Below are positions 21,529-29,489 of a stretch of DNA of 39,703 nucleotides, piece after piece. Below the pieces are notes generated by a model. The model made no database searches. It had not been told where the DNA came from and worked only from the letters and a program-made list of their open reading frames with translations. Each line of letters begins with the position of its first letter. The first letter of the stretch is position 1. This stretch comes from Candidatus Omnitrophota bacterium (GTDB lineage Bacteria > Omnitrophota > Gorgyraeia > 2-01-FULL-45-10), in assembly GCA_018823705.1 (NCBI GenBank), contig JAHJHP010000051.1:1-39703 (forward strand), given 5' to 3'. A program made the position numbers and the translations under genes.

Positions 21529-21545
21529 AAAAAGGATTTTGTAGT

Positions 21546-22991
21546 ATGAATATTTCCAGGAATAGTAAGAAGCTCTGGGTGGGATTTCTTATAATTTCCG
21601 TTGTATTTATTTTGCTGCGGCTAAAAACGCTGAATCATCTTCTGATGTGGGACGAGGCATGGAACATCCTCTCCTTAAGGGCGTTTCTGAGTAGCGCCAA
21701 GGCGGACCCTTTTTATTGGGGATATTTTTTCCATCCGCCCATTTATATGACTTTCGCAAAATTTCTTGCTCCGTTCCAGGCCGGGATTGATGTGAGGCTG
21801 GAGGTTCTTTCTTTAGTATTTTCGTACGGTGCGCTCGTATCCGCTTATTTACTGAGTGCCAGGATCGGAGGCTGGAGGTATGCGTTCTTAAGCGGGCTCT
21901 TATTAAGCCTTATGCCGGCTTCCATAGGATATGATACATGGATCAAGAGGGATGGCCTGGCATCGGCATTATGTTATTTTGCTATTTTATTGTTGATCAA
22001 AAGAAGGTTCTTCTGGTGCGCCATAACACTCTCTTTCGCATTATTAAGCAAGGAGAGCGCGGTTTTCTTTATTCTGGCCGTATGGCCGATCTTATATATG
22101 TTAAAAGAGAAAGATGTATTAAAAAAGATTTTGGCGATGGGCGCTACGATATTTGTCATTACATCGTGGTGGTATATATATTTTAGTTCGCTCACCAATA
22201 CGGTGGTTAAGATTTATTTCAGGCCATCGGATTATTACGCGTTATGGGGTAACACCCCCAGTTATTACCTCAAAAAATTGCTGCCGGATATGGGAATGGC
22301 GGCGCTCTTCCTTTTTATTGTCGGAATAGGCTATTTTTCATATTTGATATTACGCAAGAAACAATTAAAATGGAGCATACCGCTTATCATCGTATTGGCT
22401 GTATATATTCCAAGCTCTTTGTTTATTACAGCCAAAGCGCCATGGCTATGTTTGTCCGCCAGGCCGGCTCTTGCTATGATAGCCGCCGGCGGCGTGCTCT
22501 TACTGGTGAAGCTCGCGAAAAAATCAAAGCTGTTTTTAGCGGCTCTGCTTATAGTGTCTTTATTCGCGGTCCATACGGGAATATCCTTTTCATATCCCCG
22601 GTACCATATGGCAACATATCCGAATGGATGGCCCGGAGCTGTCTCATCAAAAGCGCTTGCTTTATACCTCAATAAGCATATGAAGGATAGCGATAGATTG
22701 ATGATTACGGAATTTGCGTATTGGGGCATGCCTGTTTGCGCTGTATTCTACTATTACTGGAAGGGATGCCCCGTGCTGGTAATAAGGGGGGAGCAAAAGC
22801 CCGATAATGTAATAAAGGAGATAACTATGAATAAGATAGCGTGGTTTGTAATAGTCGACTCACTTCATCCGACTCTCAATTTTCATCCGTTAGTGGAAGA
22901 TATGGAGAAGACCATACTAGGAAAGCCCGATACGGCCGGATGGGCATATGTATGGGACACCAGGGCCTTGTGGTCTGGTGACGTTGATTAA
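21546..22991 (+). CDS. Polytopic membrane glycosyltransferase (ArnT/PMT-like)
   Basis: 'LLMWDEAWNILSLRAFL' luminal acidic motif and many TM helices. Confidence 0.6.
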   Translation: MNISRNSKKLWVGFLIISVVFILLRLKTLNHLLMWDEAWNILSLRAFLSSAKADPFYWGYFFHPPIYMTFAKFLAPFQAGIDVRLEVLSLVFSYGALVSAYLLSARIGGWRYAFLSGLLLSLMPASIGYDTWIKRDGLASALCYFAILLLIKRRFFWCAITLSFALLSKESAVFFILAVWPILYMLKEKDVLKKILAMGATIFVITSWWYIYFSSLTNTVVKIYFRPSDYYALWGNTPSYYLKKLLPDMGMAALFLFIVGIGYFSYLILRKKQLKWSIPLIIVLAVYIPSSLFITAKAPWLCLSARPALAMIAAGGVLLLVKLAKKSKLFLAALLIVSLFAVHTGISFSYPRYHMATYPNGWPGAVSSKALALYLNKHMKDSDRLMITEFAYWGMPVCAVFYYYWKGCPVLVIRGEQKPDNVIKEITMNKIAWFVIVDSLHPTLNFHPLVEDMEKTILGKPDTAGWAYVWDTRALWSGDVD

Positions 22992-22993
22992 TC

Positions 22994-23009
22994 AGTAGCC
23001 CGGGCTACT
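22994..23009. repeat. 16-nt perfect palindrome
   Basis: AGTAGCCCGGGCTACT immediately after the glycosyltransferase stop. Confidence 0.8.
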
Positions 23010-23042
23010 TCTGTGGAAAACTCATAATAAGAGGACTATGTA

Positions 23043-23966
23043 GTGAAAATATCATTTCCGCGATATGGCAAATATACTGACCTGCTTACCGAGCTGATCA
23101 TAAAACTGGGTGGGGATGTCATTGCCCCTCCATCAATAACCAAGCATACCGTAGAATTGGGCACTAAATATGCGCCCGGAGACATCTGCTATCCGTTTAA
23201 AATTACGCTTGGCACCATGATCGAATCCGTGGAAAAGGGCGCCGAAATAATCATAATGGCCAATTCTGACGGATGGTGTATTTTGCGGTGCTATAACGTG
23301 GTTCAGGAAGAGATAATGAAGAGTATGGGGTACAAGTTTTCAATGCGCGCCATCAATATCCGCAAACCTATAAAGTTTTTTCTTGATGTCAGACGGATAT
23401 CACCCAGTATCTCCCCATTGGCACTTATCAAAGGGATGAGGTGGTTTTTCAGGAAGGCAAGGGATATGGATGAGGCAGAGAAAGAGGTAAATAAAAACTC
23501 TGATATCAAGATAGGGATCATAGGCGAGGTATTTGTATGCAACGAGAATACAGTCAATATGGATATAGTTAAAAAATTGCAGCGAATGGGGATCTTTGTC
23601 GACAGATGGCTCTGCCTATCGAATAATGTGGCGATGCTGTTCAAGGATATGTTCGGGATCAGCAATATGAACAAATACAGCGCGATCGCCAGTAAATATT
23701 TTCCCGTGAGAATAGGCGGCCACGCCAATGAGAACCTGGTGAGATTGATCAGATACGCAAAGGAGGATTACGACGGCGTTATAATGCTCAGGCCTTTTAC
23801 GTGCACCCCTGAAACGGTCATCGAGCCTATCGTGGAACGTATAAGCCGGGACTATAACATACCTGTATTGAATCTAAGTATCGACGAGTCGACGCTCGAG
23901 ACGCATTTTCAGACGAGGATAGAATCATTTGTAGATATGCTGAAGATGGGAAGTTCCGCGCGATGA
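23043..23966 (+). CDS. DUF2229 / 2-hydroxyacyl-CoA dehydratase-like Fe-S protein
   Basis: 'MKISFPRYGKYTDLLTELIIKLGGDVIAPPSITKHTVELGTKYAPGDICYPFKITLG' and conserved Cys in 'GWCILRCYNV', 'VFVCNEN', 'FTCTPETVIEP'. Confidence 0.72.
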   Translation: MKISFPRYGKYTDLLTELIIKLGGDVIAPPSITKHTVELGTKYAPGDICYPFKITLGTMIESVEKGAEIIIMANSDGWCILRCYNVVQEEIMKSMGYKFSMRAINIRKPIKFFLDVRRISPSISPLALIKGMRWFFRKARDMDEAEKEVNKNSDIKIGIIGEVFVCNENTVNMDIVKKLQRMGIFVDRWLCLSNNVAMLFKDMFGISNMNKYSAIASKYFPVRIGGHANENLVRLIRYAKEDYDGVIMLRPFTCTPETVIEPIVERISRDYNIPVLNLSIDESTLETHFQTRIESFVDMLKMGSSAR

Positions 23967-24940
23967 AGTATTTCTTAGGTATCGACATAGGGTCGGTCTC
24001 GGTAAAGATGGCGGTGCTGGATGAAGACAAGAATGTGCGTGCCAGCGTCTACCTGGATACCTCCGGGGCTCCGATCAAGGCAATGAAACAGGCGCTGGAA
24101 GAGATAAGGAAGGCTTCGGAAAGCCACGGTTTCCAAATAGGCGGCGTCGGCGTCACGGGAAGCGGTAGAAAGATAGCCTCATTCCTTATAGGCGCAGATG
24201 TCATTAAAAATGAAGTGACGGCTCAGATAATAGCCGCTTTACACTACAACCCTGAAGTATCCTCCATTATCGAGATCGGAGGCCAGGATTCCAAAGTAAT
24301 ACTGCTAAAAAACGGAATACCCGTTTGGTTTAATCTAAATACGCTATGCGCCTCCGGAACCGGGTCGTTTTTGGCATCGCAAGCAGGCCGGTTGAAGATA
24401 CCCGTTGAAGAGTTTGGCGCATACGCGTTCCGGTCTACATTGAAGATGAATATTGCCGCAAAATGCACCGTCTTTTCAGAAAGTGACATGATACATAAAG
24501 CAGCATTGGGCTGTAAGAAGGAAGATATCATCAATGGCCTATGCGAAGGGCTGGTAAGAAATTTTATCAATAATGTTACAAAGAACAGGCCTCTGGGCGA
24601 TCCCATACTATTCGTGGGAGGAGTGGCGTCGAATCAGGGCGTAGTGAATGCGTTCGAGCGGGAATTGGGCCGAAAAGTTATAGTACCAAAAGAGCACAAG
24701 ATAACAGGGTGCATAGGAGCCGCTATCTTAGCATTGCAGGAGAATATAAAAGAAACGAAGTTCAAGGGGTTTGAAGTGGCGAAACATGATATAAGGACGG
24801 TATTTTTTATATGCGGAGATTGCCAGAACCGGTGTGACATTACCACGATTTCCGCTAATGATACCACGGTAGGCTATCTCGGCTCCCGATGCGAGAAATA
24901 CAATGAGAGGCAAAAAATATTGTTGGGTATCGCAGGATAG
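23963..24940 (+). CDS. Acyl-CoA dehydratase activase-like (BcrAD/BadFG/HgdC) ATPase
   Basis: 'GIDIGSVSVKMAVLDE', 'SIIEIGGQDSKVI', Fe-S ligands in 'LCASGTGSFL' and 'KCTVFSESDMI', 'GGVASNQGVV', plus C-terminal CxxCxxxC motif. Confidence 0.88.
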   Translation: MKYFLGIDIGSVSVKMAVLDEDKNVRASVYLDTSGAPIKAMKQALEEIRKASESHGFQIGGVGVTGSGRKIASFLIGADVIKNEVTAQIIAALHYNPEVSSIIEIGGQDSKVILLKNGIPVWFNLNTLCASGTGSFLASQAGRLKIPVEEFGAYAFRSTLKMNIAAKCTVFSESDMIHKAALGCKKEDIINGLCEGLVRNFINNVTKNRPLGDPILFVGGVASNQGVVNAFERELGRKVIVPKEHKITGCIGAAILALQENIKETKFKGFEVAKHDIRTVFFICGDCQNRCDITTISANDTTVGYLGSRCEKYNERQKILLGIAG

Positions 24941-24946
24941 AGTATA

Positions 24947-26641
24947 ATGCGTTCAGATCACATAACCGAAAGCCTATTTAAAATGAATATAGTACATCTA
25001 CTGCTTAAATGCCTGGCGCCTGTGGCGAGGAGGTTCGAGCTCCAGACCAAAGACCCGATTTGCGCCCAGAAGAAGATCCTCTTCGAATATCTTCGCCGAA
25101 ATAAGAATACGGAATACGGAAAGAAGTACAAATTCTCATCCATCAGATCGATAGAGGATTTTCAGGAACGCGTCCCGTTCAGCAATTACGAAAACTTGCG
25201 TTTAATGGTGGAGAGGATGGCCGCCGGGGCAAAGAATGTGCTCACCGCCGATCGTCCGGTATTTTTCGGCCGCACAAGCGGTACGACAGGCAAGCCTAAA
25301 TTGATACCCGTGACCAGGTATTCCCGGAACAAGAAAGCCCAGCTGATGGCGTTATGGACTTATTATATTTCCAGGGATCATCCGGGGACGACGAGCGGTA
25401 AGGTATTCGTAATAATCGACCCCGAAGTTAAGTTGACTACTAAGTCGGGGATACCGTGCGGACCGGAGAACGGACACGCCTATGTAAATTTACCAGCCAT
25501 AATAAAACGCGGCTGCGCTATTCCGTACGAGATATTTGAGATCGAGGGCTACAATGCCAGATACTACACGATACTCAGGATAGCGATCGAGCATGATGTA
25601 ACTACATTGGCAACCCTGAATCCGAGTGCCATAATAATATTGTGCCAAAAGATCAAGAGGTGGAAAGATAGAATAATAGACGATATAGAGAAGGGAACCC
25701 TGGACCAAAACTTTGACATTCCCGAGCGCATAAGAGCCATTGCCGAAAAGAGATTGAAGCCCAACCCAACAAGAGCGCGTGAACTGCGGCGGATATTGAA
25801 TGAAAAGGGCGAATTGTTGCCGAAAGATTTCTGGCCCAACCTGAAGCTGATAGAATGCTGGAAAGGCGGCACGATGAGGCTGTATCTGGAGGGTCTTGAC
25901 CGTTATTTCGGACAAACGCCGATACGGGATTTTGGCTGCCTTTCCACCGAGACGCGCAGCTCGATACCGATCACCGATGAAGGTGCCGGAGGCATATTGG
26001 CGATAAACACAAATTTTTACGAGTTCATCCCGAAAGAAGATATGCATAAGGCCGAAAGGCGCGCGGTGCTTTGTGACCGGCTGGAAAAAGATAAGGAATA
26101 TCTCCTGATAGTCACCACGCCGGGAGGCTTATACAGATACGATACGGATGATGTCATACGCGTCGATGGATTTTTTAATAAAACGCCCGTGATTGAGTTT
26201 ATGCAGAAGGGCCTTAACGCCATATCGCTAAGCGGCGAGAAGGTGTACGAATCGCATATAAACGAAGCTATAAACGCCGCGAATAAAGGATTGAAGCTGG
26301 TGATAAAATTCTTTTCCGCTTCCGTCCAGATGGAAAAGCCGCCGCGCTATATATTTCTGGTTGAATTCACCGACGACCCATCCCTGGACAAAAAGAAGGC
26401 TTTATTGAGATCCATAGAAGATGAATTATGCCTCATTAATCTCGAATACGAAGATACAAGGCAGCGCCAGGAACTGAATTCTCCTATCCTGAAAGTGGCC
26501 AGAAAAGACGAGTTCGAAAAGTTCCGTTCTAAAAGGGTCGCCGAGGGAGCTCACGAGACCCAGTTTAAAATCCCGCAATTGGTGCGTGATCCCGAATTCC
26601 AGAAAAATTTCATTATTGAGGAAGAGATATTTTTAGAATAA
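24947..26641 (+). CDS. GH3 family acyl-adenylate/amido-synthetase-like protein
   Basis: 'PVFFGRTSGTTGKPKLIPVT', 'YRYDTDDVIRVDGFFNKTPVIEFMQKGLNAISLSGEKVYESHI'. Confidence 0.85.
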   Translation: MRSDHITESLFKMNIVHLLLKCLAPVARRFELQTKDPICAQKKILFEYLRRNKNTEYGKKYKFSSIRSIEDFQERVPFSNYENLRLMVERMAAGAKNVLTADRPVFFGRTSGTTGKPKLIPVTRYSRNKKAQLMALWTYYISRDHPGTTSGKVFVIIDPEVKLTTKSGIPCGPENGHAYVNLPAIIKRGCAIPYEIFEIEGYNARYYTILRIAIEHDVTTLATLNPSAIIILCQKIKRWKDRIIDDIEKGTLDQNFDIPERIRAIAEKRLKPNPTRARELRRILNEKGELLPKDFWPNLKLIECWKGGTMRLYLEGLDRYFGQTPIRDFGCLSTETRSSIPITDEGAGGILAINTNFYEFIPKEDMHKAERRAVLCDRLEKDKEYLLIVTTPGGLYRYDTDDVIRVDGFFNKTPVIEFMQKGLNAISLSGEKVYESHINEAINAANKGLKLVIKFFSASVQMEKPPRYIFLVEFTDDPSLDKKKALLRSIEDELCLINLEYEDTRQRQELNSPILKVARKDEFEKFRSKRVAEGAHETQFKIPQLVRDPEFQKNFIIEEEIFLE

Positions 26642-26668
26642 AAGCGAGTGCATTCGGAGGGTCTTATT

Positions 26669-27793
26669 GTGGCAGATGGTAAGCGATACAGCAATGGGAA
26701 GATGAACGTTCTGGAATTATCCGGCGACTATCGCGAGATGGGCCGCCAGTACGGTAAGCTTTTCAAGGACCAGATCGTAAAGTTTTATGAGAGGGCCATC
26801 GAAGGATATTTCATCAAAAATGCGAATATGCCGTATTTAAGGCTGCTGGCCATATCGCGACTGATCTTTCGCCGCTATCCGCCGAAAATAAAAGAGATAT
26901 TCAACGGAATAAGTGAAATATCGGGCATCAGTTTGAACAGGATCATAATGCTCGACCAGATAAACACATTCGAATTCATAAGGAATCAAAATCTTGGGAG
27001 ATGTTCCAATATGGCCGTATGGGGAGATTATACAGAAGACGGCTCTCTCGTGTTCGGAAGGAATTTTGACCAGCCGGAGTATTTCAAAAATTTTAACGAT
27101 TTTCTGGCATTGACCATTTTCAGTCCGGATGACGGCATCCCGACTGCAAGCATTGGTTACGCCGGCCAGATAGGAATAAGCGCGGCTCTCAACAGGCAGG
27201 GAGTCTTCATAGCTAATAATGAAGCGCCAACCATGAAAAGCGACGGGATTGAGATAAAAACACCCAGCGTTCTCGTTCTGGAACTTGAATTTTTAATGAG
27301 CTCTTCAGATCTGGGCGGGCTTGACAGGCTCATTAAAGGCGCGAAAGCGAACTGTCCTATCATAGTCAGCGCCGGCGATAATAAAAGATCTTACACATAC
27401 GAATGGACGGTATCCGGTATGAAGCGGAGATCTGAAGATAAGAACGGGATATTGGTATCTACAAACCATTTCGCGCATCCGTCATGGTCGAGGCCGGCGC
27501 TTCTACCGGGTTCCTATGTAAAGACGCTCGAGAGGCGCGCTAACCTGCTGTCGCTCGGAGAAAAGCATAAAGGGAAATTTAACATACAGAAGATGAAAGA
27601 AGTCCTGGACACTACTGTGGATAAAGGCGGTGCCACTCATGTTGGACAGACCACCTTTCAGATGATAATCGTGCCGGACAGGCTTGAAATGCATGTGAAG
27701 ATCCCGGATTTTCAGGATTGGACAGAGTTTGACCTCAAGGCCCCGCTTACCAGGCATGCCCTCACCGGCGACGCCGCCCCGTCTCTCCAGTAA
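26669..27793 (+). CDS. C45-like Ntn hydrolase (acyl-CoA:6-APA acyltransferase/amidase-like)
   Basis: GTG start with GGAGG RBS. 'DYREMGRQYGKLFKDQI', nucleophile region 'GRCSNMAVWGDYTEDGSLVFGRNFDQPEYF', 'STNHFAHPSW'. Confidence 0.78.
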   Translation: MADGKRYSNGKMNVLELSGDYREMGRQYGKLFKDQIVKFYERAIEGYFIKNANMPYLRLLAISRLIFRRYPPKIKEIFNGISEISGISLNRIIMLDQINTFEFIRNQNLGRCSNMAVWGDYTEDGSLVFGRNFDQPEYFKNFNDFLALTIFSPDDGIPTASIGYAGQIGISAALNRQGVFIANNEAPTMKSDGIEIKTPSVLVLELEFLMSSSDLGGLDRLIKGAKANCPIIVSAGDNKRSYTYEWTVSGMKRRSEDKNGILVSTNHFAHPSWSRPALLPGSYVKTLERRANLLSLGEKHKGKFNIQKMKEVLDTTVDKGGATHVGQTTFQMIIVPDRLEMHVKIPDFQDWTEFDLKAPLTRHALTGDAAPSLQ

Positions 27794-27812
27794 GTCCGAC
27801 CCAAGCTTCTTA

Positions 27813-27953
27813 TGCGGATAACTTTAATTTCATCGATGTTTATCCCCATAAATTCCTGTCCAGTTTTATATTTCCCATAAGTTATCCACAATGTAGGTCA
27901 CCCTTAAGGGTGACCTACGTGTATACGTGTATTACATGTATTACGCGTATATG
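27813..27953. other. Convergent intergenic region with DnaA-box-like 9-mers, 26-nt palindrome and 9-nt degenerate tandem repeats
   Basis: TTATCCGCA (minus, 27813-27821), TTATCCCCA (27840-27848), TTATCCACA (27882-27890), GTAGGTCACCCTTAAGGGTGACCTAC (27893-27918), GTGTATAC/GTGTATTAC/ATGTATTAC/GCGTATATG (27919-27953). Confidence 0.6.
27893..27918. repeat. 26-nt perfect palindrome
   Basis: GTAGGTCACCCTTAAGGGTGACCTAC equals its own reverse complement. Confidence 0.9.
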
Positions 27954-27956
27954 TTG

Positions 27957-29489
27957 CTACCCCCACAAATTCCTGTCCAGGCTCCTGTACGAGATCGCCT
28001 CGGAGATGTGGTGCGCTTCGATCGTCTCTTTTCCATCGAGGTCCGCGATAGTCCTGGAGACCTTTAACAGTTTGTCGTAGGCTCTTGCCGATATACCGAG
28101 CTCCAGTATCGCGAGTTTCAATAATTCCTCACTTTCTTTATCCAATGTACAGTACTTTTCGAGCTGATCACTCTCCAGGCGGGAATTGAAATATACACCG
28201 TCATTTCTGTAACGCGATCCCTGCGTGCTCCGCGCCTTATCCACACGTTTCCTTATCGTCTCCGAGGGTTCGCCCCGTCGCTTATCCGTAAGATGCTCCA
28301 ACTTAAGCCGCGGCACTTCCAGATGTATATCGATCCTGTCGAGGAGAGGCCCTGATATTCTGGATAAGTAGTTTTGAATTTGTAGAGGGGAACAGTGGCA
28401 TTCTCGCTTCGGATCGGTGAAATAGCCGCACGGGCAGGGGTTCATTGCCGCTATCAGCATAAATTTGGCGGGGTAGGTGAAAGTGTTGGCGACCCTGGCT
28501 ATGGTCACCGAACCCTCCTCCATGGGCTGCCTCAAGACCTCGAGGACATTCTTCTTAAATTCCGGAAGCTCATCCAGGAACAGGACGCCGTTATGGGAGA
28601 GGCTGATCTCTCCGGGGCTCGGATTAGTTCCGCCCCCGACGAGCGCGGCGTCCGATATCGTATGGTGAGGAGAGCGGAAGGGCCTTGTGCCGACAAGGAC
28701 TTTATTTGACATGACCAGCCCCGCCACGCTGTGTATCTTAGATATCTCGAGCGATTCTTCGATCGTCATCTCAGAAAGGATTGTGGGCAGCCTTTTGGCG
28801 AGCATGCTCTTGCCGGAGCCGGGAGGGCCTATTAAGAGGACATTGTGGCCGCCGGCGGCAGCGACCTCCAGTCCGCGCTTGACGTGCTCCTGGCCTTTCA
28901 CGTCCCTGAAGTCCGTCCTATACTTTGAATTTCTCCTCAGCAGCTGGTCGCCACTGGAGAGCTCTCTTCTTATCGCTACCTTCTTATTCATAAAGTCAAC
29001 GACCTCTTTAAGCGACCGGGCAGGGTAGACCTCAATATCTTTTACCGCGGCGGCTTCTCTGGCGTTCTGCTCGGGCAATACAAATTTATCTTTGTCCATA
29101 GCTTTTAACCCGAGAGCTATGGCGAGAGCGCCCTTTATCGGTTTTAACCTGCCGTCCAGAGACAATTCCCCGCAAAATATGTACTCTTTTAAGTCCGCCT
29201 CTTCGATGACGCCTTCGCATAGAAGCACAGATAACGCGATGGGCAGGTCGTACGTTGCGCCCTCTTTCTTTATATAGGCAGGCGCCAGGTTTATAGTCAC
29301 CTTCCTGGGAGGAAATGAGAATCCGGAGTTCCTTATAGCGGCCTTTATGCGGTCGCGGGATTCTCTTATGGCGGTATCAGGCAACCCTACGATATTAAAG
29401 GCCGGCAGCCCACCGCCAATGTCAGATTCGACGGTGACTTCATAAGCATCAATCCCCAAAACACAGCTCGAATATATCTTTGCGATCAT
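27957..29489 (-). CDS. comM: YifB/ComM family Mg-chelatase-like AAA+ ATPase
   Basis: 'GGGLPAFNIVGLPDTAIRESRDRIKAAIRNSGF', 'GPPGSGKSMLAKRLPTILP'-like Walker A, 'NPCPCGYFTDPKRECHCS'. Confidence 0.93.
   Translation of the reverse strand: MIAKIYSSCVLGIDAYEVTVESDIGGGLPAFNIVGLPDTAIRESRDRIKAAIRNSGFSFPPRKVTINLAPAYIKKEGATYDLPIALSVLLCEGVIEEADLKEYIFCGELSLDGRLKPIKGALAIALGLKAMDKDKFVLPEQNAREAAAVKDIEVYPARSLKEVVDFMNKKVAIRRELSSGDQLLRRNSKYRTDFRDVKGQEHVKRGLEVAAAGGHNVLLIGPPGSGKSMLAKRLPTILSEMTIEESLEISKIHSVAGLVMSNKVLVGTRPFRSPHHTISDAALVGGGTNPSPGEISLSHNGVLFLDELPEFKKNVLEVLRQPMEEGSVTIARVANTFTYPAKFMLIAAMNPCPCGYFTDPKRECHCSPLQIQNYLSRISGPLLDRIDIHLEVPRLKLEHLTDKRRGEPSETIRKRVDKARSTQGSRYRNDGVYFNSRLESDQLEKYCTLDKESEELLKLAILELGISARAYDKLLKVSRTIADLDGKETIEAHHISEAISYRSLDRNLWG

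Follow-up and report, generated by a model that had tools for sequence, protein, structure and literature searches.

Do four closely packed genes on an Omnitrophota contig form one pathway, or do they only share a site? The genes encode an Fe-S reductase subunit, its activase, a GH3 acyl-acid amido synthetase and a C45/AAT-type Ntn hydrolase, and a sequence-only reading had proposed that together they make and turn over an acyl amide, possibly with a role in the cell envelope. The window analysed here is the whole 39.7 kb contig (C44); its source genome (G000, 1.70 Mb) is ~99% complete by estimate. Searches covered 145 Omnitrophota genomes, extended to 384, plus 26 genomes of the family. The block is probably composed of two independent two-gene modules brought together at the lnt–yifB site: GH3–C45 would be an intracellular N-acyl-amide module, with the reductase pair separate from it.

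The gene block and its insertion site

The features of the block and its flanks are listed in Table 1. All four enzyme families named in the sequence-only reading were matched by profile models, beyond chance. The four genes lie on the plus strand with spacings of -4, 6 and 6 nt between the longest ORFs. GTG 26669 is likely the true start of the C45 gene, because GGAGGG is found at 26656–26661, and the GH3–C45 gap is then 27 nt; the earlier description, a same-strand block whose genes overlap or are separated by less than 30 nt, is correct with this start too. The GC content of the four genes (44–48%) is close to that of the whole window (47.6%), so that composition gives no mark of foreign origin. 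A scan for promoters and terminators returned no more sites than were found in shuffled sequences. A 26-bp inverted repeat (GTAGGTCACCCTTAAGGGTGACCTAC) is present within window positions 27793–27957, where the C45 and yifB genes converge, and is possibly a terminator shared by the two.

Spacing this tight, with no gap longer than 27 nt, is usually a sign of co-regulation. Co-transcription of all four genes in G000 is likely, and a functional link between the reductase pair and GH3–C45 may therefore have been acquired in this genome.

Table 1. Features of the gene block and its flanks (window coordinates)
Feature	Module	Coordinates	Strand	Remarks
Multi-pass membrane protein, PMT/GT39-like	Left flank	21546..22991	+	72% identical G020 orthologue directly beside yifB
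BCR/HAD-type Fe-S reductase subunit (HGD-D, partial DUF2229)	A	23043..23966	+	307 aa
Acyl-CoA dehydratase-type activase ATPase	A	23963..24940	+	325 aa
GH3 acyl-acid amido synthetase	B	24947..26641	+	564 aa
GGAGGG Shine-Dalgarno of C45 gene		26656..26661	+	7 nt ahead of GTG 26669; read from sequence
C45/AAT-type Ntn hydrolase or acyltransferase	B	26669..27793	+	No signal peptide; longest ORF 26648-27793, 381 aa
yifB/comM-type AAA ATPase	Right flank	27957..29489	-	Conserved lnt partner in family

The site itself was compared among relatives. The sister species G020, of the same genus as the window genome, has the order secA, lnt, a 1475-aa gene, the orthologue of the window membrane protein, and yifB; ~40 bp separate the stops of the GT39-like and yifB genes, where the window has its four genes. 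lnt lies almost next to yifB in G079 and G094, so that the interval is without the four genes in these two genomes as in G020, and in G115, G024 and G158 it is filled by unrelated genes. The lnt–yifB interval (window 21529–27956; L107–L112) thus varies across the family, each genome having its own cargo there, and the block is a putative insertion at this site in this lineage. Because the cargo varies, and the site is empty in G020, the lnt neighbourhood tells nothing firm on function, and the envelope role that had been read from the neighbouring lnt and glycosyltransferase genes falls away.

Distribution of the two gene pairs

Among the 384 Omnitrophota genomes, the reductase–activase pair was found in five (G000, G020, G094, G046 and G217), with the reductase first each time; G006 has a distant variant, in which a longer Red1+Red2 protein accompanies the activase. 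The window genome is the only one searched in which GH3 and C45 stand beside this pair. The pair has neither gene nearby in the other four, of which G020 and G094 carry a GH3 on other contigs, in a different context. The GH3–C45 pair was also found in G158 (L005/L113) and G160 (L004/L114), of two further genera of the family, and the 7.6–8 kb upstream of it contain no reductase in either. The pairing is known from three genera of one family. In G160 a frame break, possibly an assembly error, lies near the C45 start. The three C45-linked GH3s formed one clade in a tree of 24 GH3s, as did the three GH3-linked C45s in a tree of eight, each with a support of 1.0.

These patterns bear on whether all four genes serve one pathway, in which the reductase would act on the acyl chain, CoA thioester or amide handled by GH3 and C45, as PlsA and Ger act on glycerol esters. 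Such a pathway would account for the tight co-directional packing, and the reductase does belong to the superfamily of PlsA and Ger, which act on lipid esters; it is nevertheless very unlikely, since the four genes occur together only in the window genome, each pair standing alone elsewhere, and since PlsA-like proteins have Red1 and Act1 parts that the reductase lacks. A single four-gene acyl-amide pathway was rejected for want of conserved co-occurrence among the 384 genomes, an outcome that the earlier proposal had itself named as one that would count against it. The close packing in one genome had pointed to four steps, to which the relatives give no support. What stands of the earlier proposal is the combination of a GH3 maker with a C45 breaker, a conserved pair in three genera; its extension to the reductase module does not.

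The GH3 synthetase

The N, middle and C domains of GH3 scored 267, 73 and 63 bits against a Pfam cut-off of 23.6 (N domain, 2e-79). The three nucleotide-binding motifs, for which those quoted in PMC12493201 served as reference, read TSGTTGKPK, GCLSTE and GLYRYDTDD and were aligned in all orthologues. The protein matched the plant enzymes JAR1 (4EPL) and GH3-1 (4B2G) over its full length (E ~1e-36) and with the same domain order, but its context is bacterial and a specificity for hormone acids is not to be assumed.

OlsH (Sinac_1599) of Singulisphaera acidiphila is a GH3-type N-acyl ornithine synthetase and, in 2025, gave bacterial GH3 enzymes their first lipid function (PMC12493201). Like the window GH3 it is a bacterial enzyme with the three nucleotide-binding motifs, and ATP-dependent amide synthesis is expected of the window enzyme; OlsH is the closest functional precedent of GH3–C45, at a distant relation. 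Motif III reads WSHLIGD in OlsH and YRYDTDD in the window GH3, and OlsH has OlsI and OlsG as partners whereas the window GH3 has C45. Membership in the OlsH equivalog was rejected (103 bits, 1.2e-29, against the NF052613 cut-off of 620); ornithine can therefore not be claimed as the substrate. No alpha/beta hydrolase is encoded in the window block; OlsI, the operon partner of OlsH, is one.

An ornithine-lipid-type route like that of OlsH, with C45 as a second acyltransferase replacing OlsI, would be in keeping with the weak but significant match to the NCBIfam OlsH model and with an S33 hydrolase that is divergent from GH3–C45 in G158 and recurs at other GH3 loci. Acyl transfer is known for the C45 fold, as in isopenicillin N acyltransferase. 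Given a score far under the equivalog cut-off and a C45 unrelated to the alpha/beta hydrolase OlsI, this route is unlikely.

The C45 hydrolase

C45 scored 140 bits against a cut-off of 85 for NF040521 (C45_proenzyme), and the AAT model was also matched. Alignment with isopenicillin N acyltransferase (2X1D) placed the nucleophile at Cys119, in NLGRC-SNM after GR (residues numbered from the longest-ORF start, 26648). Cys119, N139-F-D141 and T272-N273-H274 do not vary among the three GH3-linked orthologues, and the nucleophilic cysteine is found in all eight C45 relatives. The Cys at the autocleavage position, the NxD and the TNH are as in isopenicillin N acyltransferase/AAT, C45 (2X1C/2X1D), although the sequence match to that enzyme is weak (E 1.3e-05). 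A structure model built from three sequences had a low pLDDT (33.6). The catalytic residues of both GH3 and C45, whose loss had been named as grounds against the earlier proposal, are present in the alignments. No precedent was found for a GH3 partner of C45/AAT enzymes, and a literature search on C45 with N-acyl amino acids returned nothing.

The five nearest C45 relatives that are not linked to a GH3 (G259, G263, G288, G151 and G025) all have a signal-peptide-like hydrophobic N-terminus. The maximum of the Kyte-Doolittle profile over 15 residues was 2.3–3.1 in these proteins versus 0.2–1.2 in the GH3-linked ones, and the window ORF can be extended upstream by two codons at most. The N-termini suggest that the partner of GH3 is a secreted amidase that moved to the cytosol when its export signal was lost. 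The best evidence that GH3 and C45 share a compartment is that this signal was lost in proteins whose genes are linked to that of a cytosolic ATP-dependent enzyme; a single evolutionary event underlies it.

The order of the two reactions could also be the reverse, C45 hydrolysing an imported amide (peptide-like, beta-lactam-like or an N-acyl amine) and GH3 re-conjugating the acid, in detoxification or salvage. Amide hydrolases do occur among C45/AAT enzymes, and free acids are detoxified through conjugation by plant GH3s. As no transporter or catabolic genes are consistently found beside GH3–C45, we consider this order quite unlikely.

The reductase–activase pair

The reductase matched HGD-D (1.4e-11) and part of DUF2229, and the activase matched BcrAD_BadFG (2.4e-45) and CoA_E_activ (1.7e-58). 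A second BcrAD_BadFG gene was not found elsewhere in the G000 genome, and no gene for a second reductase subunit accompanies the first. Both cysteines for the bridging [4Fe-4S] cluster of the activase (LCASGTG and KCTVF) are kept in all aligned orthologues, and the protein has a C-terminal extension of the form CxxCxNxC...GSRC. In the reductase, the canonical Cys49, Cys79 and Cys254 are kept across stand-alone and fused relatives. An extra Cys83 is found in four close stand-alone forms and an extra Cys166 in all five, the latter being absent from the G006 relative; the G094 gene model is truncated and misses the stretch with Cys49.

An AlphaFold model of the reductase (pLDDT 72) was matched by Foldseek to DCCP, 2-hydroxyisocaproyl-CoA dehydratase and BzdNO (E 7e-8 to 1e-6, TM ~0.57), which shows its fold class. 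Its least certain loops (75–83, 163–170 and 252–258) are those that hold the cysteines, as would fit a missing cluster. When solved structures were searched with a profile of aligned reductases, the C-terminal part alone was aligned, too little to fix which residues correspond to the cluster ligands of DCCP.

The window pair shares with the BCR/HAD enzymes (HadB of 2-hydroxyisocaproyl-CoA dehydratase, DCCP, BzdNO) the reductase fold, an activase partner with both cluster cysteines and the three canonical cluster cysteines; it differs from them in that the reductase is a single subunit. A [4Fe-4S]-OH2 site has three cysteines and an [8Fe-9S] cluster six (PMC11971306), and the five conserved cysteines of the window reductase lie between the two. 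By sequence, the window enzyme is a minimal version of the BCR/HAD reductases, made of one subunit and with two conserved cysteines beyond the canonical three; its compactness makes it useful for finding out what Fe-S cluster such a minimal enzyme holds. Membership in DCCP was rejected (19.5 bits against the NF040772 equivalog cut-off of 350; five conserved cysteines, not six).

The reductase corresponds to the Red2 domain of fused PlsA/Ger-like proteins, and the CxxCxNxC extension of the activase is likewise found in PlsA/Ger. PlsA/PlsR and Ger have the domain set Act1-Act2-Red1-Red2, and membership among them was rejected since one Act and Red2 are present and Act1 and Red1 are absent. Fused homologues with the PlsA/Ger architecture are encoded in other Omnitrophota (G025, G121, G030 and G104), with just ~20–24% identity to the window reductase. 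Recruitment of the pair in this lineage, so as to reduce the acyl part or the amide of the GH3/C45 product with a one-subunit reductase carrying a five-cysteine, non-standard Fe-S cluster, is highly improbable; the resulting reduced N-acyl lipid would parallel, for an amide, the conversion of ester to vinyl ether by PlsA.

Fused Act-Act-DUF2229-Red proteins of ~1430 aa, PlsA/Ger-like, were seen at four Omnitrophota loci (L116, L117, L118 and L119) and are candidate enzymes for making plasmalogens or alkyl-ether lipids. In G046 (L064:9535-12747) the reductase–activase pair is found two genes away from lgt, the gene for prolipoprotein diacylglyceryl transferase; its distance from lnt in the window is likewise two genes, which may be coincidence.

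Proposed explanation

Under the favoured reading of two separate modules, GH3 would use ATP to adenylate a carboxylic acid, for which a fatty acid is the most likely candidate, and would form an amide from the acyl-adenylate and an amine, the most likely candidates here being amino acids and polyamine-like compounds. C45 would activate itself by autoproteolysis at Cys119 and, in the cytosol, would cleave the amide made by GH3 or swap its acyl or amine part, so that the cycle would set the level or the composition of an N-acyl amide. In the other module an activase dimer would deliver ATP-driven low-potential electrons to the one-subunit, probably homodimeric, Fe-S reductase. The two modules would be linked by incidental co-transcription only.

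What is new is modest: a GH3–C45 pair with a relocalised C45, adjoining an unrelated minimal BCR/HAD reductase pair. A GH3 stably combined with an Ntn amidase whose export signal was lost suggests that both the making and the remodelling of N-acyl amides take place in the cytosol of some bacteria; as a set of just two genes, GH3–C45 lends itself to testing in E. coli.

Other GH3 loci

GH3 genes were also seen near, and mostly directly behind, a gene of the enolase superfamily (MR_MLE, epimerase/racemase-like) at L070, L076, L077, L080 and L081 in Omnitrophota and at L008 in a Nitrospirae MAG. Several of these loci, which come from six genomes of two phyla, have an S33 alpha/beta hydrolase and an SDR reductase nearby, and a possible role of the recurrent cluster is the synthesis and racemisation of N-acyl amino acids. 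The second GH3 of the window genome (L074, G000:C28:224-1897) and its orthologues in three relatives (L062, L066 and L071) lie in a housekeeping cluster with, among others, carB, pyrG, guaA, a purL-like gene, dus and UPF0047, an odd setting for an amide synthetase. A third GH3 type (L072 and L078), with SSGSTxxSK as motif I, is found in a repeated shared gene cluster with paralogous neighbours, including a radical SAM protein.
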